A stretch of 64,000 bases of DNA, from the NCBI GenBank assembly GCA_025558095.1, contig JAIVFI010000013.1, positions 310,001 through 374,000 on the forward strand. Reading direction: 5' to 3'. Every line of letters begins with the position of its first letter. Within the stretch, counting starts at the first letter, position 1. Of the stretch, positions 7,711-37,145 are shown one piece after another. A program made the translations under genes and the position numbers. The notes beneath the pieces are model-generated. The model searched no databases, had not been told where the DNA came from, and worked only from the letters and a program-made list of their open reading frames with translations. This DNA comes from Hyaloraphidium curvatum. Taxonomy: Eukaryota > Monoblepharomycota > Hyaloraphidiomycetes > Hyaloraphidiales > Hyaloraphidiaceae.

Positions 7711-7926
7711 ATCTGCGAGGGACACTTATGCACGGAGACACTATTTCGGTGTTTGATGGTGCGATTTTGAGCAGCCGATACGGACGGATGGGCGCCTGAT
7801 GGAATCATCTTACTCGCGGTGACGATCTTCGTATATCATTGGTCATACAGGTCTTTTGTCAACAAAGCAGTCATCAAGAACACTCAAGCTAACACGTATC
7901 GTCCAGCCTCCACAACTCCTCCAAAC

Positions 7927-10900: not shown

Positions 10901-11263
10901 CGGCATCGGCGGCACGACGCGTCGCGGGGCAAGAGCGGCGATCGACGGGCGACGGGCGGGCGGCGTCAGGGCGGGCGATCGGCGGCGGCGTGCGAACGCA
11001 CCCTTCCGCGTGTAGATGCAGTCCAGCCCGGTGCGCAGGCAGCGCGAGCACGTTGTGCCGGGGCCCGACCCGTCGCACTTCGAGCGGCGCTTCGAGCAGT
11101 GGTCGCACGCGGTCGTCGCGCGGATTCTCTCGCCCGGCGGCCGCTTCTTCTTGCGGCGCGGCGGTTGCGTCTGGTCGGCGTGTCCGGCCAGCGGCGCGCC
11201 GTATTCGCCGTCGCTCGGCTCGCTGCCGCTCTCGCCGGACGACCCCGAGCCGCCGTCGGACAT
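7927..11263 (-). CDS. Fungal Zn(II)2Cys6 transcription factor
   Basis: Complement(7927..8346, 8406..8690, 8742..8882, 8935..9726, 9787..10805, 11002..11263) keeps one frame for 972 residues. After an acidic, Ser/Gly-rich start comes the binuclear zinc cluster (about residues 50-84) with Cys spacing C-X2-C-X6-C-X8-C-X2-C-X6-C, starting CDHCSKRRSKC, then the linker VKKRGPQKGS. A Pro/Ser/Tyr-rich middle precedes the fungal-specific middle homology domain (LNELVGLYFNNIHHYQPFLH onward, with SNMSWIEKETERRTFWAAVM). Such proteins bind paired CGG half-sites as dimers. The target genes cannot be inferred. The 5' end lies about 110 bp from a transposase open frame, so the gene marks the left edge of the accessory island. 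Confidence 0.9.
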
Positions 11264-11433: not shown

Positions 11434-12672
11434 ATGTCCCAGCAGCATCTCGTCGACCGCCGGGACGTCGCCCAGAAGCTGTGGCGGGGCGGGATGTGCC
11501 AGACGAGTTGGATATGCCGCGTGTTCGGGGTGGACCGCAGTACCTTCTGGCGATGGATGAAGGTCGACTTTTCCGCCGATGCACCTGCTCGAAAGCGCGG
11601 CGGCCGACCCTGTAAGGTGACGCCGGAGCGGGCCAGGTGGCTCGCCGAGCTCGCCGTCTCCCGGGTGACCTGCAACCAGCGGGAGATGGCACGGGAGTTC
11701 GAGCGCGAGTTCGGGGTAGCCATCTCGCAGCAGACCGTGTCGCGTATTCTGGGCGAGCAGGGCATCGTGAGGAAGAAGCTAAAGTTCGTCAGCCCCGAAG
11801 CCATGGCCAAGCCGGAGCGTCAGGTTACCTTCCATGAGCGCATCGCCGGCGTGGAGCCCGAAAACCTCGCCGCCCTCGACGAGTCGAGCTTCCACATCAA
11901 CGAGGGGCCCACGCACGGCTACGCTCGCAGGGGCCAGGAAGCCGTCGTCGAGAGGAGCGGCGACCGCGGCACCAAGCTCACCCTGGCTCTCTGCGTGTCC
12001 ATGGTGCCCAGGCCGAGCAACTACGGCGGCTGCGTCGTGTCGTACGAGCTCTATGAGGGCAACATGAACGGCGACCGCTTTGTACGCTTTCTCGGAACCA
12101 TAGGAGCAGGCCGGCGCGCCCAGCAGCACGGAGACGGCGACAGGCAGAGCGGGGAACGGACATCCGAGGAGCTCGTAGTCATCCCCGACAATGCTGGCTA
12201 CCACGGCTCGCCGGTGCGGAAGACCAAGGACGCGGACGGCCAGACTGTTTACCGGGACTCGTCGGCCACGAAGTCGCACCGCGCGGTGCACGATGCCGCC
12301 AAGGCGAACGGGCTGCGGATGACTTACATGCGCCCGCGCTCACCGCAGTTCAATCCGACGGAGCCCACGTTTTCCGTCATCAAGCGACGGGTGAGGAAAG
12401 ACTGCCTGACCACGATGGAGGAGCTCATCGCCTCCATCCGCAGCGCCATCGACTACGTCGCTACCATGGACCTGTCGAAGATGTTTCGGCACTGTCTGAA
12501 GGCGAGCAAGACCGAGTACGATCGGATCAACGGCGCTGCGGGCTTGCTTGCTTTGTCGGGCGGTTCCGCGGCGAGGGAGGAATCTCCCTTTCGTGCTTCT
12601 TTTCAACCCCTACACATATCGCACCGGGATCACTCGCTGGCGGCCGTCTTCCCGGTAGCAGCTGAGCCTTAG
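11434..12672 (+). mobile_element. DDE transposase of IS630/Tc1-mariner type
   Basis: An uninterrupted intronless frame of 412 residues from ATG 11434; an upstream in-frame ATG at 11371 is possible. The N-terminus has the helix-turn-helix order of IS630 transposases (LVDRRDVAQKLWRGG, then a second helical unit with AISQQTVSRIL). The catalytic domain shows D149 in LDESSFHINEG, D252 in IPDNAGYH and E310 in SPQFNPTE, so the triad is complete. The second Asp and the Glu are 57 residues apart instead of the usual 34-39, owing to an insertion after DNAGYH. It sits between the Zn2Cys6 gene and a small zinc-finger gene. No terminal inverted repeats or TA duplication were visible by eye. The lack of stops suggests recent activity or domestication. 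Confidence 0.85.
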
Positions 12673-12688
12673 GTGTGAGTTCATGACA

Positions 12689-13231
12689 TTAGCACGGCAC
12701 AGCAACCTTCTTACCATTCTGGTTGTTCTCCAGCTCAACCGTGCTCTTCTTGACGCCGTCGATCGTCCACCCGTGCGTGCTGGTGTGATGATTGGCGGTC
12801 TTGAAGTGGTCGCGAGCCGCCGCCACGGTGGTCACTTCTTTGTTGCATGTGATGCAGATCAGGTGCTTGTTGCCGCACATGGCATGCTGCTTCAGGTTGC
12901 CCTTTTTGGAGAACGTCTTGGGGCAGCCATTGCACTTGAGGGATCCGTCTGCCGGAATGAGGTCCTTCTGCAGCTGCTCCCCTTTGTCGCAGAGCACCGT
13001 GACGTGGTCGAGGGGCATGCCGGTCGTCGTTGCGGTTTTCCACGGTTTCTCGAGCTTGGCACTTCGGACCTGCAGGATCCACTTGTTGTCGGTGCCCTGC
13101 TCCCATTCGCCGTAGCAATGCTGCTTGGGGCACGAGTCGTCGGGCGGGTGGCACTCCTCCTTTGCTGCTGCCTTTCCGGCGCGTGGCGTGCCGTCTTTCT
13201 TCAGCGAGCCGGAGGCTTGAGCTTTTGGCAT
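12689..13231 (-). CDS. Small zinc-finger protein, function unknown
   Basis: A single open frame of 180 residues from the ATG at 13231; the frame stays open upstream to 13399, so an N-terminal extension or upstream exon is possible. One C2H2-like finger is visible: CNGCPKTFSKKGNLKQHAMC followed by GNKH. A second Cys pair follows in CITCNKEV, with HFKTANHH after it. The N-terminus has CHPPDDSCPKQHC, another possible metal site. This looks like a DNA- or RNA-binding protein of the kind that accompanies mobile elements. It is convergent with the transposase, with 16 bp between their stops, so both may belong to the same inserted segment. I recognise no orthologue. Confidence 0.5.
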   Translation of the reverse strand: MPKAQASGSLKKDGTPRAGKAAAKEECHPPDDSCPKQHCYGEWEQGTDNKWILQVRSAKLEKPWKTATTTGMPLDHVTVLCDKGEQLQKDLIPADGSLKCNGCPKTFSKKGNLKQHAMCGNKHLICITCNKEVTTVAAARDHFKTANHHTSTHGWTIDGVKKSTVELENNQNGKKVAVPC

Positions 13232-14214
13232 CCTGAATTTGGAGCGACGGACTGGTCGGTACTCAGTGTGCAGCAAGTTGGAGCGATAGAGACGAACGCA
13301 CCGTGTGGCACCGTAGTCTGCCTCTTCTTGCCCGTGGTCCTCGAACGGGTTGGCGGCGGGAGTCAGATCTGGGCGGGGAAGCGCTAAGCATGGATCCATG
13401 AAGCAGCCCGTGACCCGCCCACCGGGAGATCTGTAAGGCGCACTTGTTTGAGAGCTCGAAAACGATCGTATCCGAGACCGCCGAGGGGCGCGCGAACGCC
13501 TGCGATCTGGGAGATCCGGTGATGAGCGGTGTACGGCGTGGCCGATAAATCGAGGCGCGCAGGCCCGTGCAACGTCTCGCAGAACTTATACTCACCTCGT
13601 CGGCCACGTCCGGAGGGTGCGGAGCGCAGCGGTCGGCGTGCGGGAGCGTCGGGATTCCTGGAAGCAGGTAGCTCTCGCCGCTCGGGGGGGGGGGGGGCGC
13701 GTCGGTCCTCCGGCACCACGCGGGCAATGCACGTGGTCCAAAAAAGGCGGTGAAGTGCGTTTCGGCCGCGGCAGGGGATTGCCGGTGCCGGGGAACGCGT
13801 GTGCTTTGAGAGTGTCGGCGATTGTGACGGTTCGTCGCAACTCCGCGCGCGACACGTCATGAACACCTACTCGAGGTTCCGCCGGAGCACCATTTTCTGG
13901 GCAACCCAGTGCCCTCTGCACCGTGCTCTGTATTATATGCGGAGGAGGGCGGGTTTTCGCGGGCTAGGCGTCTACGGGCCGGTTCTGAAGAGTGCGCCTT
14001 CAGGAGCGTCTTACGCTTTATCCCTGCATACTCCGCATCTTGGTTGCCGCAAGCGCCGCGTGTCTTGCCGGGGGATGGACCGGAAGACTCCAGACGTGCC
14101 CGGGCCGAGCCCATCGCGTCTCCCGCTGGATCCTCGGCAACTTCACCGTCGCCAAGCAGCCTTCAGAGCGAGTGGCTTCACGAGGACCTGAAGAGCGATT
14201 GGTCCGACATTGGT
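13232..14214 (+). other. Stretch without a recognised gene
   Basis: About 1 kb with only short, arginine/proline-rich overlapping frames on both strands and no recognisable domain. It contains a 14-base G homopolymer at 13684-13697 and a TATATG-like AT patch near 13931-13940. It may include the promoter of the small zinc-finger gene, which reads leftward from 13231. Confidence 0.5.
13684..13697 (+). repeat. G14 homopolymer
   Basis: Fourteen consecutive G bases are read directly. Such tracts are prone to slippage, can form quadruplex structures, and their length is uncertain in most assemblies. Confidence 0.8.
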
Positions 14215-14322
14215 CAGAAGCGCACGGACCTCATCAAGCTCCGGGGCGAGTTCCAGCTTCGCCACCGCCTGCTGGAAAGGTCGCTTCTCCAGTCCCTGAA
14301 CGACAGCAAGGGCAACATCCTG
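14215..14322 (+). pseudogene. Orphan fragment of cytoplasmic dynein heavy chain
   Basis: Thirty-six codons read QKRTDLIKL, then RGEFQLR, then [16 protein letters not shown]. This is the conserved stretch that follows the stalk in cytoplasmic dynein heavy chain, where family members have KR.DLLKLQGEFQ.RL..LEKSLL.ALN.SKG.IL. The next codons of a true dynein (a DDD-containing segment) are replaced immediately by unrelated sequence, no donor site follows, and upstream codons do not match dynein. It is therefore read as a captured or left-over exon piece, not a gene. The match is from memory of the family and needs a search. Confidence 0.55.
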
Positions 14323-14461
14323 CCGCCCCGCCGCCTCGGCCGAGGATGAAGGCGACACCGACGCCATGGACGCGGACGGCGAAACGGACAGGGCGCCCGA
14401 GCCTGGCCTTTGCTCACATGGGGGTCGCCGGCGGGGAGGGGGCGCTCGCGGCCAAATCCAT

Positions 14462-17400
14462 CTATTCGTCCCCCTCCTCCTCCATCTCCTCCGTCGGATC
14501 GAACGCCTCGCCCACGGTCGCGGCGCCGTTGGCCGCCTTCTTGCGGCTCCGCGTTCCGCCTTTGCCCCTCGCCCGCTTGATTACGATCTTGCGGTCCTTC
14601 CCCATCGCCGTGTCGAGCCGCAGGAACTTGCAGAGTAAGTGCTCCCAGTAGAGCAGATCCAGAAAGACCTGTTCGAACGACGGCCTCCCCGACTTTTGTA
14701 GACGGAAACCCCACCCATCCAGGATCCGCTCGATGTCCCCATACACCTCGCTCGGCCGCCACCCGCGGGACCGGAAGAACTCGGCCACATGCTCTGACCC
14801 GAGCCCGAGGGTGAAGTCCTCGACTGGCCCGCCCGGCATCTCGAACCAGCAGTCGGGGCTGAAGTAGAAGACGTCCCCAAGCGCGAGAAGGATCATGAGC
14901 TTGCCGGCGTAGGTTTTGCGGCACGGAGGCGGGATCGTGTGAAGCTCGTTCTTGTCTTCCAGTTCTTCCAGCAGGGTATCCAGCTTCTTCTCGAGCTTCT
15001 TTTTCAGCGGCCACTCGCGAACGTCCGTGCCGGCCCGAATAAAGTCCTCCCAGACCAGCTTGCAGTTGACACCCCTTGTAGCAAAGGCAAGCTGTACACA
15101 TTGCTCGAAAGCATAAAGCAGCAGGTCGAAAAGTCGTCCGCAGTGCTTGGCAAAGGGCTCCGTGCCGAGACCAATGACCTTGTTGAACGGTGTCTGGTAC
15201 GCCGTGGGGGCGCACTTGCCGCCGGTTGGGCGGATGGCTTGCTCCCATCCCTCTGCCGTCTTTGGGAGCGTCCCTTTGGGAACTTGGTGCCGGGGGTGAG
15301 ACCGTGCATTCCGGTGAGGCTTCCCGAACGCATCTAACTCACAAAGCGTCTTTGAAAGCTCGAGCTGCTTGTCCCCCCAGTCGAGCGCACGCCGCAGAAG
15401 GCATCCGGCAAAGCATCTGCCAAGCTCCTTCAAGGGGACTTTGCCCCTGGGCCAGGTCTTTTCCAGGTAGGTGAAGTAGGACCGGGCCGTGGAGGTGAGC
15501 TGACGGTTGGGCGAGATCCAAGCTTCCCGTGCTTGCCCCACGAGTGCAGCTTCTTGTCCAGGACGCTCCTGTACTCTTCGAGCGACGGCATCCCTGGGGT
15601 GACAAACTTGACGGATAGGATCTGTTTCTTGAGATTCGCCATCTTGGCCGAGACGTCCCTGAGTTCGGACGGGGGCAGGCCAGGCCTTCGCATTGCAGCA
15701 TCCAAGTGTGCAATTGCTGCTTCCATCGCAAGAACCGTTGCTACCTCCCCTGCCGGTCGAGGTCGATGAGCTCGCGTAGGCATGAACGCGACTCTGATCA
15801 GCTCACATCGTTGCGGCACAAACGCGGGCTTCGGCGGCTGCTTCTCCTCCTGCGGCTTGTCCTTGATAACAGCGTGCTTGCGCTTCTTTAAGTCGGCCGC
15901 CGTAAGAGTTGGAGGGCGGATCTGCCAGACCGCGCGGAGCGCGCTGAGCAGCTTGTTCACCAGCTCGTTTGCCGACCGCGGGGGCCTATCTGTCTTGAAT
16001 AGGAGGTCCTCCAGCTTTCCGAACGCATCTGCAAGGAGGCCCGAGGTCAGCCAGCGGTGGATGAGATAACGATGCGCCGCCCACATACCGTGTAGGCGGA
16101 TCGCGCGCTCGTCGACATACGCATGCAGCCGGCCCTCGTTCTCCTTAGATAAAAGATCGCCTGCCCTCGCGCCGCTGAATGACACGAGCTTCGAGTGGTA
16201 GGTCCCAACGAAAAGGAGGGCTGGCGATCCGTGCTTGACTAGGATGCGGTACAGCTCGCGGATGCCTCGGTTGTAATGGTATTTCAGCCAATGGGCAGGG
16301 CCGCAGTCATCGTCTCGATAAACAAGACTTCTCAATCGCATGTCCAGAGGATAAATCATGAAGAGTGCAAAGAAGAGCGCGAAAAAGTCCTTCTCGCGCT
16401 CCCCGCTGGCCTCGTTGCGCAGCGAGTTCGCCCCCTTGAACGTCTCCGCGGCATGTAGCTCCGCGGATTCATTGAAGAGAAACAGGTCCGGGAAAGTTCG
16501 CTGCAGGCGGTTCAGGTGCGGCTTAAAGTCTCTGGATAAGCGAAAGCACGCCACCGCCGATCGGGTTTCTTCGACCAGAATAGCGAGATTCCTGCCGGAG
16601 AAGCGCCAGTCTGTGGCGGCCGGTGCCTCCGCCAGCTTCGATGCGTCCGTACTTGCGACCAGCGTCGCCAATCGATCCCTGCACGAGCACACACGCAACG
16701 AAAGCACGCCCAAGGTGGCCCACCGCAGCTACAGAAGCGAAGGCGTCGGTGGTCCCGCGAACCTTGCTCGAAAGGTCGAAAAACTCCGCCAATACCGCAC
16801 CGATGTCCTTTGCAATCCCGCGTCCCGAGCCGGCGGCCCTCTCCCCGCCGGGGAGGCGAGGGATGGATACGGTGGCCGGGAACCGGATTCCTCCTATCTC
16901 GTGCATCTGCTCCTCGGAGTCCCGCGCCGGATACAGTTGGGTGGCAATGTCGTCGCACACTTGGCGTGCCGCGTCCTCGCTGATTAGCGGGACCAAGCCA
17001 AGCAGGCCAAAGTTACGCGTAGTCATCTCTGCCGCGCGCTGTTTCCGCAGGTCCTGCGCCGTCATGGCCGGAGCAGAAGGCGCCGCCGCAGACGGTGCCG
17101 CTGCGCTGACCGGCACCGACCCGGCAGCGGGTGCCTTCTCCACGACCGGCTCCCCAGAGGGTTCATCCTCGGCATCCGTGGCAGCAGCACCGCCTTGAGA
17201 AGCGGCGTCCTCGTCCTCGTCCTCGTCGGTGTCCTCCAGCAAGTACCCTCCCTCCGAGGGCATGTACTCGGATCCCGCGTCAAGGTCCTTGTCCCCCTCC
17301 ACCGCATCATCCTCTGCGCCAACCCCCCCCGCATCCCCGTGTTGCACTGAGTCGTCCGCGCCATCGTGCACCACGAAATTCATCGCGGCCGGCTGCTCGC

Positions 17401-18695
17401 CTGCGCCCTCGTCGTCGGCGTGTGCGGAGCCTCCATCCTCAGCATCTTCCGTCACCGGTGGGTCCTCGCCCGCGCCCTCCCCGTTGACATTGTCGCCCGC
17501 ACGCTCCGCGCCGTCGAGCACACTGCCGGCCGCGTCCTCGTCCTCGAGGGGCTCGCCGCCGGCGCCCTCGTCCGCGCCGGCTGCCTCATCTGCGCCGACC
17601 GCTGCGGATCCCTCGCGCTCGTCGCGCGCGTCCTGCTCCGAGCCTGTCGCACCCCCGTCGTCGGGGCCGCCACGAAGCTGGTGGAAATTGTCGTCGAAGG
17701 CGCTGATACCGAGCGGGGCATCGAAAAGCTGGTTGCTGGCCTGGGCCGTGCTGCGGGTCTGATGACAGGGACGGTGGCTGAGAGCGAACGATCCCGCACA
17801 ACGCTCGCAAACCCAACCAACCTGCGCGGCATCCTTGATCCTCTGGCTCTTTTCGGCACCCGGTGCGTAAATTTTGAGGGTTTCTATCGCGATCGCAGTC
17901 TCCTCGAAGTAGGCCTTGTCGAGGAGCTCTGCGGTGGATGCAGTCAGCGGAGCTGACCCAACGGCCCGTTTGCCTGCCCATTGCTTCAGCTCACCACGCG
18001 TGTTGCTGGTGGTGTTCTTGATGTCCTGGAGCACCGCGCCCTGCACCCAGGTGCAGTCCTCCTCAATCGCGGCCTTGAGCTTGTCGGCATCCCGGGCGGG
18101 ATCCGCGAGCGACCTAGGCGCGTAGATGACCATAAGGTCCTCGGACCGCTCGCCGAACAGAACGCGCCCTTTGGGCGCCTCGCCCGGTTCGTGGAATCTG
18201 ATGTAGGACGACTTCGTCGGCCGCCAGCGCACGGGCCCGGGATCACCTGTCTCCGGATCGCACTCGAGGGAAACGTGAGGATCGGGAAGCACGGCGCCCT
18301 TGACCGCAACGTGGCGCAGCATTCCGGGTATGTCAAACACGGCCTCTTCCCATGCGTCCATGTTGTAGGTCCTGAACTCCTCCCCGAAGGCCTTCTTGAT
18401 CCTCAGCATGGTCTGCGACGCCAGCCCCGAATCCATCGGCACTGTCCTGCATGCAAAACGTCGGAGGTCAGGCATGCTCATGGCCTCAAAAAGGATGCAC
18501 CCGCCAGCCGTAGTTCAGAGCAGACTCCATCACCACCCTGTGTTTCTCGAGATACGTCTGCTGCCTGTAGGAGATCAACGTCGAGCGAAACAGGTCCTCG
18601 GAGCGCTCAACGTCGCCCCAGATGGACTCGTCCAGCTCCCACATGGGGATGTGGTAGAATCTCCCGTGGAAGAGGACGAAGCCGCCTGGGGGCAC
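14462..18695 (-). CDS. Large unrecognised multi-exon gene (accessory island)
   Basis: Minus-strand open segments follow each other: 18695-18486, 18481-16523, 16713-15430 and 15541-14462, with frame changes where introns would fall. The joins near 18490, 16700 and 15530 are not settled and could be introns or frameshifts. For the join near 15530, GTCCTG...CGTCAG would give an in-frame intron. The product would exceed 1,200 residues. It has an N-terminal globular part (MDSGLASQTMLRIKKAFGEEF), an acidic Asp/Glu/Ala-rich low-complexity middle, then helical domains (LFLFNESAELHAAETFKG; LLYAFEQCVQLAFATRG). It ends in a lysine-rich, then acidic tail with KKAANGA and EEEGDE. I recognise no family, and no catalytic motif stands out. 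Long conserved-looking helical blocks argue that it is, or recently was, a real gene. Confidence 0.5.
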
Positions 18696-20425
18696 GACAG
18701 CGTAGCTGCGAGAAAGCCCAGATCAGAGCCGGTCACCCTTCGGGATCCGGCACAGGAACGCACGCGTTGAGCTCCGGGAAGTATAACACGCTGTTCACGT
18801 TCCTTACGAGTTCCCGACGGGAAGGAAGTGAGCTGGCGGCTGTCGCGTGGTTCACGGGGGGCACATTGGTCGGTCTGCTCGCTGCTGCACGCCAGCATGC
18901 ACTGATTGCATCATCTCCACCAGAAGCACGGTGATTCGGGGGATGGGTTTGGGGCGCATTTGATGCCGGACACGGTTTCCGCGGGCATGGGTTCGGGGCA
19001 TGGGTTCCCGGCGACGCTGGGATTCGCTTTAGCACGTCTTTTTGCTCATCGCGGTTGCAAACTAGATCTTTTCTGCGTTGCCAGTCGTCCGGATCTTTCG
19101 TCCGAGGCACTTCCAGGTCAGCTGTCGCACGAGGTGCGGTCTCACCGCTACGGAGCGGCTTTCGGCCGATCGGGCGGCGGTTCTGCGCTCCCGGTGCGAA
19201 CCTTCATCTTCACCAATGAATTGGAGAAAGGCGCAGGTCCGAAGGCGGGCAACAACCCCGTTGACGAGGGCATACCGGACCGCGAGGCGTGGTGAACGGG
19301 CCGGTGCGCTTCCGCGGCAATCATTGCGATTGCATCAGGTTGAGGATACCTCTACGGCCTTCTCTCCGAGCGCAGCGGCGTAGGCGTCGTGTGTAGACTT
19401 CTTTCATTTGATCTTTTCCCCTTAAAGCGCTGGCTCGGGGTCTGGTGACCGCACCGTGAAGAGATCGGGGCATCCGACGATCTGGAATGTTTGCAATGTA
19501 TGTGGAGCAGGTCCCCTGTCCCTCGTGCGCCCGCGAGAACCGGTGCTGGGCGCTGGAAGAGATGAAACGTGGTCAAATTTGGTGAAAAATGAATGTGGAG
19601 CGGTGGTGGAAGCTCGGAGCCCTTCCAGACCCTCCAAGCCCGCCGAAACAATTTGAACCGTTTTGCCGATGGATGAAAGGGGCGGTTCCCGACGACCACC
19701 GCGGCGACACGCGGCACCGGAGCGCTTATAAAGTAGAAGATGGGAAAAGAAATGGAGATGGTAAGCGATGAGCGCAAACGACGGAGAAAGGTGCGGAGAC
19801 CCACGAAAAAGAGCATCGCGAGATATAATAGGGAAATTTGGGAGGGAGCGCCGTCGAGGGGACGGGGAGTCAGAAACGGTTCGGGCCGGCTGCTGACCTC
19901 GCCGACGCCGAAAGTCGAGCTTGGACGCACCCGGCCGATGAAGAATCAGTGCAAAAGCGCCGCCGGCCCCGCGAATGCCCGCCTGCATCAACGGTGGGGT
20001 TTGTGCGCGGGAGATTCGATTCCGTGGCTTGACCGGCGACATGGTCTATAGGAAACACGAGTCGAAATGGGAACTGCCAACAAGCGGGCGCAACGGCAAG
20101 ATACGGTGTCAGAGCAGCGCGAAGAAAGCTCGGATTGAACCTACATTGTTTTGCGCGCGGGGGGGGATGGGGGTGTTGGAGTCGGTCATCTGAGCGGGGC
20201 TCGTGTGAGGTTTCTTCCTCGTCCTGTGCCGATCCGACGCTACCGACGCGTTCCATGGGGACGTATCCCGCTGAATGCAATCTTTCTTCCGGCCTCTACG
20301 GAGCCGGATGTGCACGGATGAGGATGAGGTTCGGTGTTTACGGTTGTTGCCGGCCCGCCGCTCGCACACTCTTCCCGGGCGTGACAGGCCAGTCGGGTGC
20401 GGCAGACTGTCTGTTGCATTATCCG

Positions 20426-24436: not shown

Positions 24437-26545
24437 ATGCCGCCCAAGAAGAGCACCAAGTCGCGCGGAAAACAACCGGCGGCACCTCCGGCAACTCCCG
24501 CGCAGGGTCCCGCGGCGGCGGGCGCGGCGGGTGCGCCGGGCGTCCCGACGACACCTGCACCGGCCCCCGCGCCACCAGTGGCTCCTCACGGGGACGCACC
24601 AACCGGCTCTGCACATCTTCCAGCTCAGCCGGGCACAGGTGGCCCTCAGGTAGGGTCGGACATGCTGCCGGGCGCCTTCCCATCGGAACGCCCTCGGACG
24701 CCCTGATGCCCACCTGTCGCCCCCCCAGATCAACGTCATTCCCGCGTTCGTCCCAGATCCGACGAGACTAGCGCATCCTCAGCTGACGGAGGCGCTCGCG
24801 GAAGCCAACCGGCGATCCATCGACGAGTACAAGTCGTTTTTGTCCACCAGCGTCAAGGATGCGCTCAAGACCAAGTTTGCCCGGGCCGCTTTTCAAGCCG
24901 TCGGACCTCTGGACGTCTTGTATCGCTGGCTTCGGAGCGTACCCAACCCCCGCGGCGCTTTTCTGGATTTCGTGGACAACCTGGAAGCAGCAAGGCTGCT
25001 CGACAGCGACGACCTCAAGGGTGCGAAAGGCCTCAAGGAGCTCATGGAGAAGGATCCGAAAGACCCTCTGCATACTAAGTTCACCAAGAAGGTTTTCCAG
25101 GTGCGGGAGCAGCAGCAAGCGGCTTGCCCCGCTTGCAATCTAACGCACATCGGATGCCAGGCCGCAATCGCCCGGCAAATGAACGTGCAGGCGGCACCAG
25201 CACCCGCTGCCACTGCGCAGGCCGGCCCTGCTGCTGCGGAACCGCAGCGCGAGGTTGCAGCTTCTGTGGTTACCAGGCCCCTTGCAGCGTTGAAGCCGCT
25301 CACGGACAAGGACGCCAAGTCCCTGTTCGGCGAATCGGCGCCCACGTTCCTGGAGCCGGCCGTCGACGCGGCCAAGCAGCGCAGCGTCAGGGTCCCGATA
25401 GCAACCGCCTTCTTCAAGTGGGCCGCTCGGGGTGCCTCGATTCCGTCGGTCGAGGGCGCATCCGGGCCAACGTGGTCCGAGTTTCGGGAGGTGATGGAGG
25501 AGCGGAGGCGGACGTGGAGTGAGGCGGGCATGACTTTCGGGGAGGGACTGTACCATAGGTTCCTGGACGCCATGCGGGCCGAGGGCTTTGATGCCAAGTC
25601 TGGTCACCTGGACGAGCTCAGGCGCTTTCTGACGATCGCCAAGGACGAGGGCACGGGGCGCGACAAGGTTGGCGGCTACCCTGGACAGCTCGCACGGGCC
25701 TGCTGATCACGTCCACCTCTGTTGCAGACCAAGTCTGAATTCGAGTTCCTCCTCGAGGTGGGCTCCCGCGGCAACGCAAACGGTTCGACGCTTCAGCTGA
25801 CTTTACCGCACTTCCTCTGCCGAATCAGAACGAGGAGCTCGAATCGGGCGTGACAATCACGTCCGGCTTTGTCCGGAAGCTCAACGACCTGCTCCAGGAC
25901 GACGGTAGCGCGGGAGCCCAGGTCGGGCAGGAGCAGACGCTGCCGCTAGCCAAGGTTGGCACTGTTCCCATACTGCGAACCGCATGCTGCGAAACTGACC
26001 GGGCGTTCGCCTCCTACAGACCATCTCGGACCTGATCGAGTCGGTCGTCTCGAACGACGACGGGGTCCGGACGGACCTCATCTTCTGCCTGGACTTTGCC
26101 TACAGCAAGGACCTCACGACGTTGTTGGAGCACTTCCAGAGGGAGCGCATCGAAGGAATCCGCAAACGGGTCGTGTCGAGCACCCGGAACGGCAAGGTCA
26201 GGCCCGCGGTCCTGGAACGGCTCAAGGAGGGTTCCCAGGTCGATCGGCACCTGAGGCGCTACATCGTGAGCTCCACCTACCTGCGCGTGCGAAACAGCGG
26301 CCTGACGGGCCCGCCTTCCCCAGAAGCAGCACGCTACCGCCGCGGCCCAGAGCACGACCCGGCGGGAGCGAGGAACACGCCGCCAGGCGGTTGGTTTCCA
26401 GGTGCGCGAGTCGCATGCGTACTTTCGCCTCGCGCCGGGCACGAGCTCGATCCAGACCCACGTGAGTGCATACGGCGACGGCGATCATGCCGCGGTGCTC
26501 ACCGTGCTTTCGCGGCCGGAACCAGGAATCCCGCAAATCGGATAG
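24437..26545 (+). CDS. Unrecognised 598-residue protein directly upstream of the Fanzor gene
   Basis: Exons 24437..24649, 24729..25667, 25728..25757, 25829..25954, 26020..26286 and 26324..26545 all join in phase 0 with GT-AG borders and give 598 residues. The N-terminus (MPPKKSTKSRGKQ) is basic, then Ala/Pro-rich. The rest is helical and charged, with a possible metal-binding patch CPACNLTHIGC near residue 210 and a block LIFCLDFAYSKDLTTLLEHF. I know no matching family. The gene reads toward the Fanzor gene, whose chosen ATG is only 70 bp beyond this stop. A GTGAGT donor at 26462 could instead splice this gene into the next one in frame, so the two may form a single transcript. Confidence 0.6.
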
Positions 26546-26615
26546 AGAGCTGCAGGTCGCCGAAGGCCGCCGCACCTCGCGGAGGCAGCCGGAACCACGG
26601 GCAGTGCACTCGGCC

Positions 26616-29600
26616 ATGTCTTCGGCACCCGGGTCTCGGGGCCATTCACCCAAGCGCCGCCGAGTAGCTTCGGGAGGGCCGGAGTATCTGGTCACGGACG
26701 ACGGTTCGTCGCCGGGACGGATGCTGATGGAGGCGGAGCAGACGGCGCAACCGGCTCGTCCGGATTCGGGACTCCTTGAGCAGGCGGAACGACGCTTCCG
26801 AAGGGAAGGAGCAGCTGTTGAGAACGACCTCAACGTGAGCATCCACCAGTGGCTCGGAGAGCATCCCTGACGCGCTTGCCGGCCGCACAGTACAACGCAC
26901 CGGCCGCCCCTCCCGGTCACGTCCTCGTGCTGACACCGGCGGATCTGCTCGAGCGCGGATTCGGTGTCCGCGACCCGGCCTTGATCAAGGACTACAGGAC
27001 AAACCTCGCCGCCTGGCGTTTTCTGGAGAGGAGCGGCGGCACCACCTCTCGCCGCCCGACCAAGAAGGAACCGTCGTGGACCGTATCGGAAGACTTTGAC
27101 GAGCGCTTCCAGATGCAAATGCTTTACGGTTCGAAGGACAGCTTCGCTCATGGCATCCTACGCCTTGCCGTGCCACGTTTTGCTACCCCCGAGGACAAGG
27201 AGAAGAAGGAGGCCGAGGTCGCGGCCTCCTGGACCACGGGCTGCGAAGCCGAGGTCATGGAGGCCTGTGGGAAGCCCTGGGAGGACCTGAAGCAGGGAAC
27301 TCGGGAGTGGATGAAGGCGCTCGAGATCAAGCGGCGCTTCAAGAAGCTGAAGGACAAGGCGCTGAAGGAGCTCATCGACGAGGACGCCAAGTTCCGTCGA
27401 CGCGTGCTTTTCGAATTTCGCGCAGACAGTCGGCGGACGGCGGTTCCCCGAGACAAGCGGCGGGCTTCCGCAGGCCGTGCACCCGCCGCGCCGCCCCCGC
27501 CGGATCCCGCCCCGCTGCAGAGGAAGCGCGGTCGGGCGCCGGCGCCGCCTCCCGCCGCAGCTCCTCAAGCCCCGTCGACGGCAGCGCTTTCCCCGCCCCC
27601 GGTGCCCCCGGTCGACCCGCGCAGGCCGGCGGCCCCGGTGCACAACAGCAACGCGACCCCCGTCGTGCAGCCCGAGCCCACCGGATACGGGGATTTCCAG
27701 TCCCTGCACCAGTTGTTCTTTGCGTGCGACCGAGCACTCGAGCACGCCATCCAGGAGGGGCCAGCCGCAGATCGCGCCGCGCTGGAGGAGGAGAGGAAGG
27801 CGCTGGGGACGGCAGTGGATTTACTTCGTATGCGCGTACCCGCACGGGCCTTCCACTCGCTGTCTGTGTTCGCGGACGTTTGCAGCCGTCCTGTGGACAC
27901 GCAGGAACAGGTCTTCAACGTGTGCTCCGTCGGCGGCAGGGCGCTTGACGCTGTGCTCCGTGCGTTCAACTTGCTCAAGTTCCAGCCGGGAGTCAATTTT
28001 GGTAACCGCGTGGTGCTGGACGAAAGCTCAATTTGCGCGTGGGTTGGATCCGACCTGCAGTTTGCCGGTCATGCTGAGCTTCCTCATCGTTTGCAGGTAC
28101 TGTGACGGCCCAATCAAGGAGGTCGTTGCCGCTTGCAAGCACCATTCTCCGGCGAACCTCGAGATGATCAAGGCCCGTCACATGGCGGGGCACTTCTCGG
28201 CCTACGCCAATAAGGACGCACCTCAGCAAGTGGTGGATTTCCCTTCATTACTTCGCCAGATTGCCGAGAGGGACGGGCTGCAGGCGGTCGAGTCCTTCGT
28301 GTACGTGCCGCACCGCCCGCCGTCAAGCGCACGCAGCTGACGAGCTCATTTCCCTCCAGGCTCCGGAACCACGCTCAGAACGGCATCGGTTGCGGGAGCC
28401 TGGGAAAGGTCGTGCCCGCACTTTGGAGTGGGAAGCACTTCATCGACGGCGTCAGGAATGCGTTAGAGATCGGTGAGTGACATTCAGACTGCCTAGGTCG
28501 GCGTTCCTAATCGCGCGACATCACCGCGCCAGGCGCAACCTGGATCGATCCGTTTTGGAGGCAACTGATCGAGTCCGACCCTCGGGCGGTGCCATCCCCT
28601 CCCGGATCTTCATCTGCGGCTCCTTCGCACCCTCCCGCCCGCGCAGCGCCCCCCTCCACTCCCGCACCCAAACCCCACCCCTCAACCAATGCCCCGCCGC
28701 TGACGAAGGAGGCCGCTGCCCTGCCGCCGCGGCCGTCGTGCGTGGTTTGCGGCGGAGCCCCCGGCAAGTGCAAGTCGGACTGTGACCCGCAGCTGCGCGC
28801 CTACTTCGACCAGATCGCGGATGCCTGGGATCCCGAGAGGAAAAGGCATTTCCGCGTATCCGTTGGTGTTTCGTCGCCCGCGTCATTCGAAAGGATGCTC
28901 ACGCTTCGGCTCGCCAGACCGAGTTCCTCACGCGCCCTGCCAAGAACCTCATCTCCTCCCTGCTCCCGCACATCCGCGCGCTTCTCCAGCGGGCGATTGC
29001 CGATCATTCATTCCAGCGGAGACTCCGTCAGGAGCTTCCTGGATTCATCCATCTCGGTCTTGACATGTGGCTCAAGGAGAACGAGCATGGCTCTTTTGTC
29101 GTGGACGACGCCTCGATGTACTACCTCGCTCGCCTTCGTAAGTGGTTTCCTCCCCGCCACGACTCTTCTGACGTTCTGGCAGTGGGCACTCGCAATTCGG
29201 AACGCGAACCCTTCAAGCCCAACACCGCGGACAAGGGGCTGGACGCGGCACGCGTCCGCGTCACCGAGTTTTTCCGGAGAAAGGTCCTTCCCCGGTTCCT
29301 CAAGCTGATCAAGGAGACCGAGCTCATGGGATCCTTCTGGGGCGCGGACGTCGTGGACTCGGTGCGTTTCTGCCTACCGCTCCGTTCCAGCAGTGGATCT
29401 CCTAACCCTCAATGCAGACCGGGCAGTCCATTTCGAGCCAGATCCTTGTCTCTTATTGTAATCAGCTCAAGAGCATTGACCGCCCGCTCGGCAAGCTGAT
29501 CAGGGGCAGGTTCGTGGACGCCGGAATGCCGTCGGGCCTGGTGGGCCGTCTGGCCCAACGCGCGCTTGCCGTGCTCTTTGACAACGTGCCGGCTGAACTC

Positions 29601-32600
29601 ATGGTGGGCACGGACTTTATCGAGGCCATCGCCGCCCCGAGCGATGCCGCGGGGGACGCATCGACGGACGACAAGGACAGCGACGAAGCCAATCTCGCCG
29701 CGGAACTCGAACAGGTGAAGGAGGAGGACGGGGTCGGCAAGGACGACGGGCATAAGGCCGGAGAGCGCGAGCAGAAGCTTTTCCAGACCGTGCTCCGCGA
29801 GTGCCTCGACATCATGCGGCTGCTCCCCCAAGATTCGCGGGATCTCCTGGGGCACCTGCACTCTGAGGTAACTTTGCGCGCCCTTCCGCTGCCTTTGCGC
29901 GTTCTGCGTGTGGCTAATCCATGCCTTGCGATAGAAACGCTTCCCGCCGAGGCCCGAGCTGGGCTGGGAACTCTGGCGCAGGAAGGAGTCTGAGAAGGCG
30001 AGCTTCGACGACGTTTGGTCCAGCTGAGCGCTCACGTCATGCAATCAGGGCGTTGTCGTGCCTGTGAACGAGGCCAAGGAGGCCTTCAACAAGCTCCCGG
30101 ATCCGGTCAAAAAGGCGAGTAGTCGCGGCAATTTTGAAGTCATCGTCCGTGACCGCCGCCCTTCTGCAGCCGTTCGTTGACGTCTTTGAGCGCAACAATG
30201 CGCTCTGGCTCGAGCAGGTGGACCTCATGGCACGCGGCCGTCAGCGCAAGTGCCCCGAGTACGAGGACGCCCCGCCGGAGTACAAGGACCTCTCCGGGCG
30301 GCCGATCGCGGCCAGCTGGATCCCGTACCAGAAGAAGGAGGCCAAGGTGAGCTTTGCCGGCTCCGCAAGCTGACCTCCTCACGTGCCGTCCTTTCAGGGC
30401 CCGCGGGATCCGAAGACGGTACCTGTGGATTTACAGACCATTGCCACCTACGTCGCCGGGCTGCGCGACGGCAACTTCGCCCAGGCGCCGGAGGAGCAGA
30501 AGAAGAAGTCAAAGGCTTTCACCACCTCGTCGGGGGACAAGGCTTGGACTAACGACCCGAAGATCATCACCCCGATAGCCAAGGCTCACCAGGTCGTCCT
30601 GTCCAAGATCGAGGAAATCAACAGGACCCGGATCGAGGCCCGCAAAAAGTTCGATGAGGACGAGAAGGCTGTCGCCAGGGCGTCCGCGCCGCCTGATGCC
30701 GTCGCCAGCGAGCATGCGGCTGAGGGGACGGAGGCCGACGTGGACATGGATGCGGCGGCCGAGGACAAGGATGCGTTGGCGAGCGCTGCGGAAGCAGCTG
30801 CTCCGGACGTCAACCCGTCCACCGGCACCCGGTATCCCGGCGACGGCCGGTCGTCACAGCTCAACCCCGCCTACAAGCAGGCCGGCAAGGCCGTCCTCAA
30901 GGCGGTGGTCGCGGCAGCTGTGGAGGGCAAGGGGACCGGCGCCCACGGCCAGGTGCCGCCTCCGCGGCAGAACGACCTCGACGCCGATGCTGGCCGCGGC
31001 GTGCCTGCGAAGCCCGCACCGAAACCGGCAGCGCAGCCGTCGTCGTCGGGCAGGCGGGCGCCTCCTCGACCAATCAAGGTGGTCGATCTCGGCATGACGT
31101 ACAGCACTTACGCCAAGTCGTTCGAAACGTTCGGCAAGGATGCCATCATCCGGCTCCTGCAAAGGTGCGTTGAGGTCTCCCTCCTCTTCCGCCCTTCGCA
31201 GATTGACGATCTTGGTGCCTTCATCAGCGTGGAGGGGTCTCCGATCACAGGCATCACCAACAAGAGCTTCGAGTCCACCCTCTTCGGCAACGGATACGCG
31301 ACGTTTGCGGCCCATATATGGGATCTGTCGGACTTTGCGCCGGAGCTTGCCGGACGGGGGCCGGAGCTCTGGACGTTCCACAGCGCGCTCACGAACGGAG
31401 AGTCCGTGAACTACGTCTTCGAGAAGCACGTGCTCAAGGAGGTGGACGATAAAGGGCGTCCGATCGGTGCTCGTCGGCCCGCAAGCACCAAGGCGGAGAA
31501 GGAAAAGCGGGCCGAGGAGGCGGAGAAGAAGAAGTGGGAGGATTACAAGAGTGTGTCTCGCTCGCTTCTCGACCCCTTGGCGTCAGATCCGGCTGACTCG
31601 GTCATCGCTTCAGAGTTCCTTGACGAGGGCGTCAAGCTTGCTCAGCTCGACGAGCTGCTGGCGTTAATCATCCCCTCAAACGATCCGGGCGAGCGCAACC
31701 TCCTTTGCGGCACCCGAAACCTGAACAAGCCTCAGTTTCGTGTCGTGAAAAACGCCTGCGACAAGCCGCCCGTCAACCCCAAGACGGGGGAGGTGATTGA
31801 TGTCGCACCGCTGCTGCAGAAGGTCTACGTCCGCAACGAGGACGGCACCTGCACCACCTGGGTCAAGTCGTGCAGGCGTGATCCCATCACAGGGATGCTC
31901 ACCGGAATCGAGCTCCGCGAGGAAGTGACGCTGGCGGACAAGGCGGACAAGGCGGAAAAGTACTGGCAGGAGCACGGCGTCAATCCCGATCAGCTTGAGG
32001 GCCTCAAGAAGCTCAAGCCGCATCGTCCGGCTGAGAACCAGGAACCCAAGGACACGTACGGGTCCACTTGGCAATCGATGCGCGGCCCGCGGCCGCCGAA
32101 GCGCTCGGACGACTCGGTGGGACGGCCGCGTTCCGCCAACGTCGACGACAGCTTCTCTCGCCGCAAGTGGAGCGACAACGAGCTCGTGCTCGAGTGGCTG
32201 CTTTGGACCAAGCGCAACTACCGTTGCCTGCCTCACGACTGGGACGAGGCGGAGCACGGACCGATGGCGCAGAGGGGTCGGGAGGAGCGTGCTCGCGCAA
32301 AGGCCGAGAGGGAGAAGGAGCGCGCCCAGAGGCAGCAGGCCGAGAGCGCGGGGGCGGCGGACACGGGCTCGGACCTCGAGGGCGCGGAAGCCATGGACAC
32401 GGCGTCGGAAGCCGGATCGGCCTCTGGCTCGGCCGGATCCGGAGGTGGCGATGCGGGCGGTGCGGAGCTGGAGAACGTCATGGCCGACGCGGGAGGAGAC
32501 GACGCCCAAGACGAGGGAGCCATGGCCGCAGAATTCGAAGGCGACGTCGACGAGCAGCTGGAAGCCGGACACGAAGCGGCCGAGGAGGAGCTCGATTCCG

Positions 32601-34227
32601 ACTACGAGAGCGACGCTTCCTCGTCGTCTTCCTCGGGCAGTTCCGAGTACAAGCCTGCTGCCGCGAGGAAGCCGAAGCGCGCGCCGAGCAAGCCGGCAAA
32701 GGAGGCGTCGAAAAGCTCTCGAAAGGCGAAGGCTTCGAAGCGGTCTCTCGTGTTCATCGACGAGGACGAGGAGGAGCCCGAGATCCCCCAGCAGGAGATG
32801 CAGCGCAACAAGGAGATGTGGCTTGCTCTGGGAATGCTGCCGCGCAAGAACGCTTTCCGCGCCGAGGCCATCTACAGCCTTTCGAAGCAGGAGCACCGCC
32901 GCCAGTGCGGCTTCATCGAGTACCAGAGGGAGTCGGACAAGTTCAAGAAGGCTCACAAGCTTCCGGTGGGCGTGTCGCTGCTGCCCTCGCTGCTTTGCCT
33001 GACGGTGTATGCTCAGCACTGCTACGTCGTGGACCACGAGGAGGTCGAGAAGCGGAAGCGGGGCGAGTCGGACAGGACGGATCTCCCGATCAAGAAGCTC
33101 GAAGGCGAGATGACGCTCAAGGAGTGGGAATCGGGCCTTCCCACCAAGCGCACGACGGATCCGGACAAACTCGTTCTGTTTTTGGCCTGCCACTTGAACA
33201 CACAGCTGCCCGTTTACGGTACGCTGAAGCGTTTGCCGCGAGCCGCTCTCGTCTGACCCGTGTTCCGCCCCTCCAGAGTTCTACAAGCGTCATCAGCTTA
33301 CGTGGGCATCCTCTCTTTGCGAACACCGGGTCCAGCATCTAACGCGTTGCTTTGCGCAGTGACCTGAAGCGCAGGGTGACGGCCCGGGCGGCGGCCACGG
33401 TCGACCGTTTCGTGGAGGAGTTCGTGAGCCCCTTCTGGATGCGGGTCCCGATCGAGAGGGCCAGGAAGCTCGACGGCATCTGCAAGAACAAGAAGATCAA
33501 GATCGAGATGATGTTTCCCGACGCCTCCCGCTTCTCCGACCCTCCGTACCTCGGCAGGCGGAGGAAGAAGAAGCCTCCCGACAAGGACGACGCCAAGAAG
33601 CAGGAGGAGGCCGACAAGGAGGTCCTCCGCAAGGCGAAGGAGGGCGAGGTGTTCATCCGGATGTTTGTGGCGCCTACTCTTGTCGACGGAGACGCAGTGT
33701 GGCCCCACACTATCCGCGGTTCCACCCACGCCCCTACTTTGCGCGTGAGTCTCTTTGCTGATCCTTTTCCGCGGCAATCCACTGATCGATCACCATCTTG
33801 CAGTACGCGGCGGCCTTTGACCGGCTCCACGCTCGCTGGAATCTCCCTGGCAGCGAACGCAGGATGCTGAAGGCTCCGATGAAGGAGTACCACACTTCGG
33901 CATGCTGCAGCAGCTGCTTGGTGAGCTGGAAATGGCAGTCGCGGCCGTCTCCGTTCTGACACTCCGCCAATCGCAGGAGACGCGCCTGAGGATGGCGGCT
34001 TCCCGCTTCGTTGAACGCAGGAAGCTGATCTGGGGTGTCAAAAGTGAGTTTGAGACTCCTAAACACATCGCCCGACCCGGATTGACACGTCGATCGCGGC
34101 AGAGTGTATCCGATGCCACATCATGTGGAACCGCGATGTCAACGCGGGTCGGAACATGGTGCACCTCTTTGTCTTTGGGTGCCTGACCGGCGGCATGCGG
34201 CCTCCTGCTTTCCGCGTTGGGTATTGA
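26616..34227 (+). CDS. Giant Fanzor-type (eukaryotic TnpB-like) RuvC nuclease
   Basis: Seventeen exons join without a stop to 2,235 residues: 26616..26834, 26891..28038, 28097..28300, 28360..28472, 28533..28855, 28918..29137, 29183..29361, 29418..29867, 29935..30012, 30049..30105, 30170..30346, 30398..33218, 33277..33301, 33360..33744, 33804..33920, 33977..34043, 34103..34227. Fanzors are RNA-guided DNA endonucleases related to TnpB and Cas12. RuvC-I is seen as NDPGERN (D1485). The C-terminus has KEYHTSACCSSC (E2161; Cys 2167, 2168, 2171), then WGVKKCIRCHIMWNRDVNAG (Cys 2196, 2199; RuvC-III D2206), the classic Fanzor/TnpB zinc ribbon and final motif. E2161 may be the relocated active-site Glu described for Fanzors; no canonical RuvC-II Glu stands out. 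A basic KRRR patch near the start may be an NLS. The roughly 1,480 residues before RuvC-I, including an acidic 220-residue block within the RuvC lobe, are far beyond usual Fanzor length. The N-terminal third could be a separate gene. Confidence 0.82.
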
Positions 34228-34684: not shown

Positions 34685-37145
34685 ATGGCGTGGCAGCCTC
34701 CACCGGGCATGGGTCCGCCGCCCGGGCTGCCCGGCATGCCGCCCGGCATGCCACCGATGGGCGTCCCGGGCGCGTTTCCCCCCCAGATGCCGCCTTTCCC
34801 GCCGCCACCCGGGTGGGCGCCGGCTCCGGCTTTTGCACCTCGACCAGGGATGCCGGGCCTTCCCGGAATGCCCCCGATGCCGTCGAGGCTGCAGATTTGG
34901 ACCACGCACACGACGTCGGACGGCCGCACCTACTACTTCAACTCGCAGAGCAAAATCACCACGTGGGAGAAGCCGGAGGAGCTCAAGACCCCGTTCGAGG
35001 TGCGTGACGCGTCGTATTGCCCGGCCGCACGAGTCTGACGCGTCCGATGGCCCCAGCGCGCCCTCGCCGCGCTGCCGTGGAAAGAGTTCACCGACAAGGG
35101 CTCCGGAAAAAAGTACTACTACAACGCAAACACAAAGCAGACAGTCTGGGAGATGCCGTTGGAATGGAAGGAGTTGCTGGACAAGAAGGAGAGCGGGGAG
35201 CTGCCGGAGTGGGTGCCACGATTCCGTCTTCCTGCGGCGTCCTCTGACCTGACCGGACCAGCGAGCTGCCCTCGGAGACCAACGGCCTCGGCACGCCCGA
35301 CTCGGCGGCTCGTACCGAGCCCGATCGAGCGGACGTCGTGGTCGAGTTCAAGACGCGCGAGGAAGCCGAGGACGCCTTCATTGAAATGCTCAAGGAGCAT
35401 GTGGGTCCTTCGCCTGTCGCGCCCTGCTCGCTCCCGACCTCTAACGCGCGTGTCGCACCCTGTAGAACATCTCCTCCACCTACACATGGGAACAGGCCAT
35501 GCGGAGCATCGTCGCCGACCCCATGTACCGCGCCCTCAAAACGCTCTCGGAGCGGAAGCAGGCCTTTGTGCGGTACACGGAGGAGCGCCGGCGGCACGAG
35601 CGGGAGGAGCAGCGGAAAAAGTTCGTGCGGGACCGGGAGGCCTACCGCGCCATGCTGGAGTCGATGCCCGAGATCAAGCCGACGACGCGGTGGAGGCGCG
35701 CGCTTTCGCGGATCAAGGACAAGCCCGAGTTCCTGGCCATCGCCAACGACAAGGAGCGCGAGGAGCTGTTCGAGCAGTATGTCGACGAGCTGCGCCGCAA
35801 GGACATCGAGGAACAACGCGCGCTCCGCCGTCGCAACGTCGACAAGCTCAAGGGGCTGCTCGCCAAGCACGGCGTGGGCCTCTTCACCCGGTGGAAGGAA
35901 GCCCAGGCGCTCTACACCGCGGACCCCGAGTTTGCTGAGGACAAGCAGCTGCAGGCGATGGACTCACTTGACTTTTTGGCCACATTCGAGGACTACATCC
36001 GCGGGCTCGAAGCCGAGGACACCGAGGCCAAGCGGCGCGCCGAGACCATGAAGCGCCGTCGGGAGCGCAACAACCGCGAGGCGTTCTGGGGCCTGCTCCA
36101 GGACCTCGTCGAACGCGGGGTCCTCACCACGACGACCAAGTGGAAGCAGATCTTCCCCGTGATCAAGGACGACCCGCGGTACCTCCACATGCTCGGCCAG
36201 GGCGGGTCCAACCCGCTCGAGATGTTCTGGGACATCCAGTACGACATGGAGGAACGGTACCAGACCGAGCGGAGGCTCGTGAGCGACATGATGCGGGTGG
36301 GTGGCCGCCGTTGCGTGCTTCGTGTTGTTGTTGTGCTCATCCTCCGCTCCCCTTTTTCGCAGAACCTCAACATCGTCGTCAACCTGGACACCTCCTTCCC
36401 CCTCTTCCTCGCACAGTTCTCGGACGAGCGCATCAACACGGTAGACAAGTCGATCCTGCGGATGGTTTTCGAGGAGCAGCTGGCCAAGGCGCAGCACCGC
36501 CAGCGGGAGGAGCGCCGCCGCGAGGAGAAGCGGCTTCGCAAGAAGCTCGACGCGCTCAAGCAGGCCCTGAAGCGGCTCGACCCGCCCGTCACTGGCGAAT
36601 CGAGCTGGGACGAAGTGCAGCCCCGCGTGGCGGGGAAAGCCGATGTCGAGGGGGTGCCCGAGGACATGCAGGCCGAGGTGTTCGAGAAGCTGCGGAGGCG
36701 GATCGCGGAGAATCTCCCCGACAGCGAGCCGGAGGAGGACGAGAGGGAAAGGGAGAGGGAGGAGCGCAAGCGGCGCCGGGAGAGGAGCGAGGAGCGGCCG
36801 CGGAAGGAGGCGGCGAGGAGGGACCGCAGCGACGACAGGGCAAAGAGGGACTCGAGGCGCGACCGGAGCGAGGATCGCAGGCGGAGGGATCGCAGCAGCG
36901 ACGAACGGGCGAAGCGGGACCGGGACGAACGGGGCAGGCGCGACGGCAGCCGCGAGCGGCGCTCGGGAACCAAGCACCGGGAGCGGTCACTCGGGAGCGA
37001 CGAGGAGAAGGAGCGGAGGAAGAAGCGGAAGGTGGGAGCCCCCGCTGCCGTCCCGGAGGATCCAGGCTTCATCGTTTCGGCCCCGCTCCGGCATTCCCGC
37101 TCCCCACAGGAGGATGAAGAGATCGAGGAAGGCGAGATCGTGTGA
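34685..37145 (+). CDS. PRP40: Splicing factor Prp40 (WW and FF domains)
   Basis: Exons 34685..34999, 35057..35208, 35262..35400, 35466..36296 and 36363..37145 keep frame for 739 residues. Prp40 is a U1 snRNP component that bridges the 5' splice site and branch-point factors during commitment. A Met/Pro/Gly-rich N-terminus leads to two WW domains (IWTTHTTSDGRTYYFN...TTWEKP and LPWKEFTDKGSGKKYYYN...TVWEMP). FF domains follow (from FKTREEAEDAFIEMLKEH and TYTWEQAMRSIVADP onward). The tail is rich in Arg/Asp/Ser repeats (ERRRRDRS-like) and ends EEIEEGEIV. The last intron (36297-36362) is 66 bp and stop-free, so it would otherwise be read through. The gene is convergent with RTF1 and is the first conserved gene right of the island. 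Confidence 0.93.

Follow-up and report, generated by a model that had tools for sequence, protein, structure and literature searches.

A giant Fanzor-lineage gene in Hyaloraphidium curvatum, probably part of a transposon unit, and relatives that appear fused to a transposase

Is an exceptionally large Fanzor gene in the fungus Hyaloraphidium curvatum a gene in its own right, or one part of a mobile element? Fanzors attract study as RNA-guided nucleases of eukaryotes, and their role for their transposons is unproven. The question is raised by a stretch of 64,000 nucleotides (assembly GCA_025558095.1, contig JAIVFI010000013.1, positions 310,001 to 374,000 of the forward strand; hereafter the window, with coordinates counted from its first nucleotide), in which a preliminary description had placed an intact Fanzor gene of 17 exons and 2,235 residues beginning at position 26616. 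The spliced frame is indeed open up to a stop at 34227, but the gene is longer than was described and is, as modelled, an intact giant gene of 2,815 residues. The window probably contains a giant Fanzor1-type transposon unit in a long-form copy of ∼23 kb, made up of a transposase, an antisense gene X, and the Fanzor, between two host genes (Table 1). More tentatively, a class of eukaryotic transposon that was active recently may produce its DDE transposase fused to a giant RNA-guided nuclease, in a single polypeptide of ∼2,600 residues, and this copy may be a long-form member of the class in which the two are split.

The extent of the window Fanzor was obtained from a splice-aware coding model trained on the long frames of the window, with manual refinement of a proline-rich exon and of the last exons. 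The N terminus of the best chain reads MPPKKSTKSRG, and counting from the ATG at 26616 leaves 16 exons and 2,252 residues of this chain. Before refinement, the model scored 584; the minus strand scored 158, and 20 dinucleotide-preserving shuffles gave at most 15. Within the genome, the C terminus has its nearest relative on contig C3 (minus strand, near 874422). This homologue was modelled independently as a protein of 2,816 residues, and profile comparison found the two proteins colinear across almost their full length (E 2.9e-49). Nine introns occupy an identical alignment column and phase in the two genes (2,000 trials gave a chance mean of 0.08 and never more than 2). One common intron (residue 405, phase 0) lies upstream of the ATG at 26616, a second upstream intron matches to within three columns, and the residues around this ATG are conserved (window, RAVHSAMSSAPGSRGHSPKRRR; C3 homologue, GPVHSAAPSV-GNSPPPKRPR). 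The start proposed earlier is therefore internal, although it may serve as an alternative start, and exons 1 to 11, which the preliminary description had allowed might belong to another gene, are not a separate gene given the colinear homologue with its common introns. Full-length frames and common introns at 22 to 43% identity suggest, indirectly, purifying selection on the window Fanzor. Codon-position counts between the two genes are close to saturation, and no ratio of nonsynonymous to synonymous substitution rates is given because synonymous sites are saturated.

By its sequence, the C terminus of the window Fanzor belongs to the TnpB/Fanzor superfamily. The motifs NDPGERN, HTSACCSSC, and WNRDVNAG reported earlier are all present, as is the acidic block inside the nuclease lobe, and a second CxxC (CIRC) completes a C4 zinc ribbon. 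The Fanzor1 C-terminal pattern, D ... [TS][TS]xx-C4 zinc finger ... RD, is thus represented by D2065, HTSACCSSC, CIRC, and WNRD, while the conserved Gly and Glu of Fanzor1 (G500 and E536 in Bao and Jurka) correspond to the G of DGDAVWPH and to E2741, neither of which varies among six family members. The catalytic Glu of solved Fanzors sits on a loop before the zinc ribbon (TNB) (PMC11423790), the position that E2741 occupies. Across six aligned giant proteins of the same genome, the three acidic residues (D2065, E2741, and D2786) and the four cysteines do not vary. To call the motifs textbook, as the preliminary description did, was nevertheless too strong. The PF07282 match of the window Fanzor (E 7e-4) reaches 20.1 bits, below the 26.3-bit cut-off that a sister copy, L008, exceeds (28.5 bits); the NCBIfam guided_TnpB match (E 0.0014) is far below every TnpB family cut-off; and 678 residues separate the RuvC-I Asp from [TS][TS], as compared to a published 125 to 275. 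This spacing is 331 to 342 residues in families A, B, and C1 of the giant copies described below, the stretch from RuvC-I to the zinc ribbon being much shorter in families A, B, and C than in the window Fanzor. A profile of the six giant proteins matched two solved Fanzor1 proteins, weakly and at profile level (GtFz1 of Guillardia theta, E 8.5e-5; SpuFz1 of Spizellomyces, E 0.003), and the two groups are linked by a conventional Fanzor1 from contig C14 (giants, E 1.3e-9; GtFz1, E 4e-9). The profile searches place the C terminus inside TnpB/Fanzor, where the preliminary description had left room for its falling outside. It is very likely that the window gene is of Fanzor lineage and transposon-derived; that its product is an active RNA-guided nuclease, with both guidance and catalysis predicted, is a possibility to be held with some doubt.

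Approximately 2,060 residues, instead of the ∼1,480 counted earlier, precede RuvC-I in the longer model. They include two cysteine clusters, a basic patch resembling a nuclear localization signal, and long helical or low-complexity stretches. No recognisable enzyme domain was found in this extra sequence, for which a coupled enzymatic step had been suggested. Comparable cysteine clusters recur at corresponding places in the C3, A, B, and C proteins, with weak colinear profile matches (E 0.004–0.04). The N-terminal 2,000 residues gave no significant alignment to families A, B, or C, and the body of the window Fanzor found only itself in a genome search. This region is probably an enlarged lobe for nucleic-acid binding that carries zinc clusters, and not a second enzyme.

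To place the gene among its relatives, the genome was searched with the C terminus of a sister copy and with that sister's transposase. At least 17 other giant Fanzor copies were recovered (ten in family A, five in family B, and in family C two diverged copies, L008 and L009), and in all three families an IS630/Tc1-mariner transposase lies directly upstream of the Fanzor in the same orientation. The A and B copies compared are 8.6 to 8.7 kb long and exhibit >99.6% pairwise identity; because they are near-identical with unrelated flanks, the 15 copies of these families are taken to have moved recently. Family A ends in short imperfect inverted repeats, GTTTCACACACAG... and ...CTGAGAGTGTAGC. All of its 3' junctions read TA, but among nine copies the 5' junctions read TC six times and TA three times, which is unusually asymmetric for a simple TA duplication. 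Family B also has terminal inverted repeats and TA duplication, with junctions less regular than those of A. The A and B proteins are ∼39% identical over their N-terminal half, and both families carry a block of 36 to 37 nucleotides (GCTTGATCGAGGTGGAGTCCG...GGACCGCCTTTT) in the 3' non-coding end (L051, 9238–9274; L054, 9392–9427). A 21-nucleotide core of this block has exactly 15 exact occurrences in the genome, one per copy, and a genome search with the block returned just the 15 known copies and no RNA-only ghost copies. The block is a candidate for part of a guide RNA or for a subterminal binding site. The two family C copies, both on contig C2, are mosaic: identity is 92% over the ∼960 bp at the start (transposase) and 70% at the 3' end, while the middle is mostly unalignable as DNA and the proteins align at 34%. 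Modelled residues ∼1490 to 1660 of L008 contain a motif like that of OTU cysteine proteases (KGDCLFESVS ... YWGDHFALQSL ... GYRHYDLL; Pfam OTU just E 0.13), of which the cysteine is gone in L009 (GPNHVF). No relative was found on viral contigs by the A2 patterns.

In family A, the exon that holds the transposase (L051, 871–3186) extends stop-free into N-terminal Fanzor sequence. The arrangement in family B is alike (exon L055, 933–3329), and the gene models of family C also read through from transposase into Fanzor. The joining segment is 32% identical between A and B and differs at codon positions 1, 2, and 3 with frequencies of 0.53, 0.49, and 0.68; it is judged to be coding because positions 1 and 2 change less than position 3. 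By our own estimate, a run of ∼420 further stop-free codons at 63% G+C has a chance below 1e-4. Changes between copies (13 synonymous and 19 nonsynonymous in two A pairs, 8 and 5 in two B pairs, some of them common to pairs) give only hints of constraint. On these gene models, the transposase and Fanzor of A, B, and apparently C appear to occupy one uninterrupted reading frame. No report of a Fanzor beyond 2,000 residues or of a transposase–Fanzor fusion was found in the literature compared, which leaves out one key 2023 Fanzor survey.

The transposase of the window is intact, with all three acidic residues (D149, D252, and E310), and is 38 to 42% identical to the transposases of families A to C. 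Genome searches detected transposase–Fanzor pairs at this longer spacing (16–23 kb) in the window and on contigs C3, C15, and C23, of which the first two loci were read at sequence level. At the C3 locus, the transposase has decayed to its helix-turn-helix (HTH) part (residues 4–142), and what is left of gene X is a relic of 46 residues from the last exon; the element order transposase, X, Fanzor is supported because this relic lies at the matching place. Gene X is without known domain apart from its C2H2-like finger, and one diverged relative lies at C11:309901–311743. The candidate interpretation of gene X as a Fanzor relative was tested by comparison and ruled out.

Several observations weigh against assigning the window Fanzor to such a transposon unit. 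The locus has no match to the termini of A or B and no long inverted repeat between its flanks, and transposase and Fanzor stand 12 kb apart with the antisense gene X between them. The C3 Fanzor frame is full length despite the decayed transposase, so the two can part and the Fanzor can outlast its transposase. The window protein also lies outside the published Fanzor1 spacing D-X(125–275)-[TS][TS]. AlphaFold models (predicted local distance difference test, pLDDT, 34 and 46) were too poor to probe a RuvC plus WED/REC fold, and Foldseek with these poor models gave nothing significant, its top six matches all being Cas12 (E 0.08–0.28). All splice sites and fusions rest on gene models. One of several possible explanations is that the window Fanzor arose from a transposon and is now domesticated or stranded as a gene of the host (e.g., acting as a DNA-binding protein or a guided nuclease), with the transposase a bystander. 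A protein body that is single-copy in the genome, a locus without terminal repeats, and a C3 relative that retains its frame beside remnants of transposase and gene X are consistent with this, and the common introns imply that the gene has carried introns for a long time. We nevertheless regard domestication as unlikely, since the window transposase is intact and shares the orientation of the Fanzor, and since long-spaced pairs recur at C3, C15, and C23, which points to one element type and not to independent capture. Moreover, the host neighbour is SEN54-like at C3 and PRP40 at the window, so the two copies do not represent one ancestral locus.

The 12 kb gap, with its antisense gene and a largely non-coding stretch at 19 to 24.4 kb, might also reflect unrelated neighbouring insertions, the Fanzor being standalone and the transposase at 11.4 kb a chance neighbour. 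This is decidedly unlikely, as the same order and orientation are found in at least four long-spaced loci, transposase and Fanzor are directly adjacent in 17 others, and the gene X relic adjoins the C3 transposase. An inflated gene model, in which permissive splicing joined a decayed Fanzor to neighbouring coding debris, would be in keeping with splices that are predicted, with a few weak donors (e.g., 24531 GTGCGC and 30013 GTTTGG), and with two exons of just 25 to 26 nucleotides; yet the score is far above that of the shuffles and the independently modelled C3 gene is equally long with nine identical intron positions, making inflation very improbable. The standalone Fanzor of 2,235 residues from 26616 is equally improbable: its ATG opens a good frame with a basic patch just downstream, but coding frame, common intron, and conserved residues extend up to ∼24437 in both the window and C3.

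Table 1. Features of the window (positions in window coordinates)
Feature	Position	Strand	Structure or detail	Basis
Host gene, Zn2Cys6 fungal transcription factor	7593..11263	-	left border	Pfam Zn_clus E 5e-9, Fungal_trans E 4e-21
IS630/Tc1-mariner-type transposase	11434..12672	+	412 aa; HTH plus DDE	Pfam DDE_3 E 3e-11, HTH_32 E 1e-8
Gene X	12689..18959	-	modelled 1,661 aa; C2H2-like zinc finger at C terminus	coding model, domain search
Giant Fanzor-lineage gene (modelled)	24437..34227	+	23 exons, 2,815 aa	splice-aware coding model, introns common with C3 homologue
Fanzor exons 1-12	24437-24530, 24624-24649, 24729-25667, 25728-25757, 25829-25954, 26020-26265, 26324-26461, 26526-26834, 26891-28038, 28097-28300, 28360-28472, 28533-28861	+		
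Fanzor exons 13-23	28918-29361, 29418-29867, 29935-30012, 30049-30105, 30170-30346, 30398-33218, 33277-33301, 33360-33744, 33804-33920, 33977-34043, 34103-34227	+		
Start codon proposed earlier	26616..26618	+	internal, residue 564 of longer model	flanking frame conserved, common intron upstream
Cysteine cluster CxxC-x(6)-C-x(3)-C	28739..28783	+	CVVCGGAPGKCKSDC	read from aligned proteins
RuvC-I NDPGERN	31679..31699	+	predicted catalytic D2065	D invariant in six family members
Acidic, low-complexity insertion between RuvC-I and RuvC-II	32290..32790 (limits approximate)	+		most acidic 60-mer from residue 2316
E2741 (KEYHTSACC)	33885..33887	+	predicted second catalytic residue	invariant in six members; placed like the catalytic Glu in solved Fanzors
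Split C4 zinc ribbon (CSSC ... CIRC) and RuvC-III WNRD	33903..34137	+	D2786	PF07282 E 7e-4; NCBIfam guided_TnpB E 0.0014
Host gene, PRP40-like splicing factor (WW, FF)	34686..37145	+	right border	Pfam FF E 3e-49, WW E 7e-20

If the window holds a transposon unit, the transposase would cut and paste the element at TA-like sites, and the Fanzor, guided by RNA from the 3' end of the element, would cut the emptied or homologous site. Repair would then restore the element, so that copies would not be lost. Published work has proposed that TnpB and Fanzor safeguard transposons following excision, an idea taken up in PMC10432273. The single open frame of families A, B, and apparently C may link excision physically to guided cutting, whereas the window lineage has separate genes.

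Elements with a Fanzor1 and a Mariner-type transposase were described in 2013 as encoding separate proteins, with fusion unmentioned (PMC3627910). The elements PGv-1 and PUl-1 (Bao and Jurka 2013, PMC3627910) resemble those of H. curvatum in carrying one of each per element, with the transposase 5', the Fanzor 3', and a TA-like target, and also in being chimeric, with a common transposase end and differences elsewhere. In contrast, the proteins described here have ∼2,600 to 2,800 residues, and the transposase of A, B, and apparently C is in frame with the Fanzor. Likenesses to SpuFz1, GtFz1, and PpFz1 (PMC10432273, PMC11423790) comprise the RuvC Asp, the Glu before the TNB zinc ribbon, the C4 ribbon itself, and WNRD or WNRN, to which the profile match to the giants adds a further likeness for SpuFz1 and GtFz1. 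Unlike these proteins, the window Fanzor has ∼2,060 residues before RuvC-I and 678 from the first Asp to the zinc ribbon. Known Fanzor1 proteins are reported to reach ∼800 residues (PMC10711439), and the window Fanzor is three to four times the size of a usual Fanzor. The TnpB proteins of IS200/IS605 and IS607 share the zinc ribbon and RuvC-III and are likewise transposon accessory nucleases; the window Fanzor differs from them in falling far below every TnpB family cut-off, in being paired with a DDE transposase and not a Y1 or serine recombinase, and in being eukaryotic and intron-rich. Within the literature compared, the giant size and the apparent fusion are new, while transposon-linked Fanzor1 was already known.

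The same genome also contains conventional Fanzor1 genes with N-terminal zinc fingers (L077, L078, L079, and L015, on contigs C31, C1, C2, and C14). Three of these are near-identical and have WNRF for WNRD in their readable frame, perhaps reflecting a missed intron. A further Fanzor-like gene, L010 (C5:334001–344000; GLDVGTRFW, PF07282 E 5e-7), is not close to the giants.

The window Fanzor and its relatives raise the known size limit of the Fanzor family severalfold. If true, the fusion would be a natural precedent for engineered transposase–Cas fusions. The role of a Fanzor for its transposon would become directly testable in this small fungal genome, where the system is present in multiple copies, has moved recently, and apparently has the two enzymes fused.

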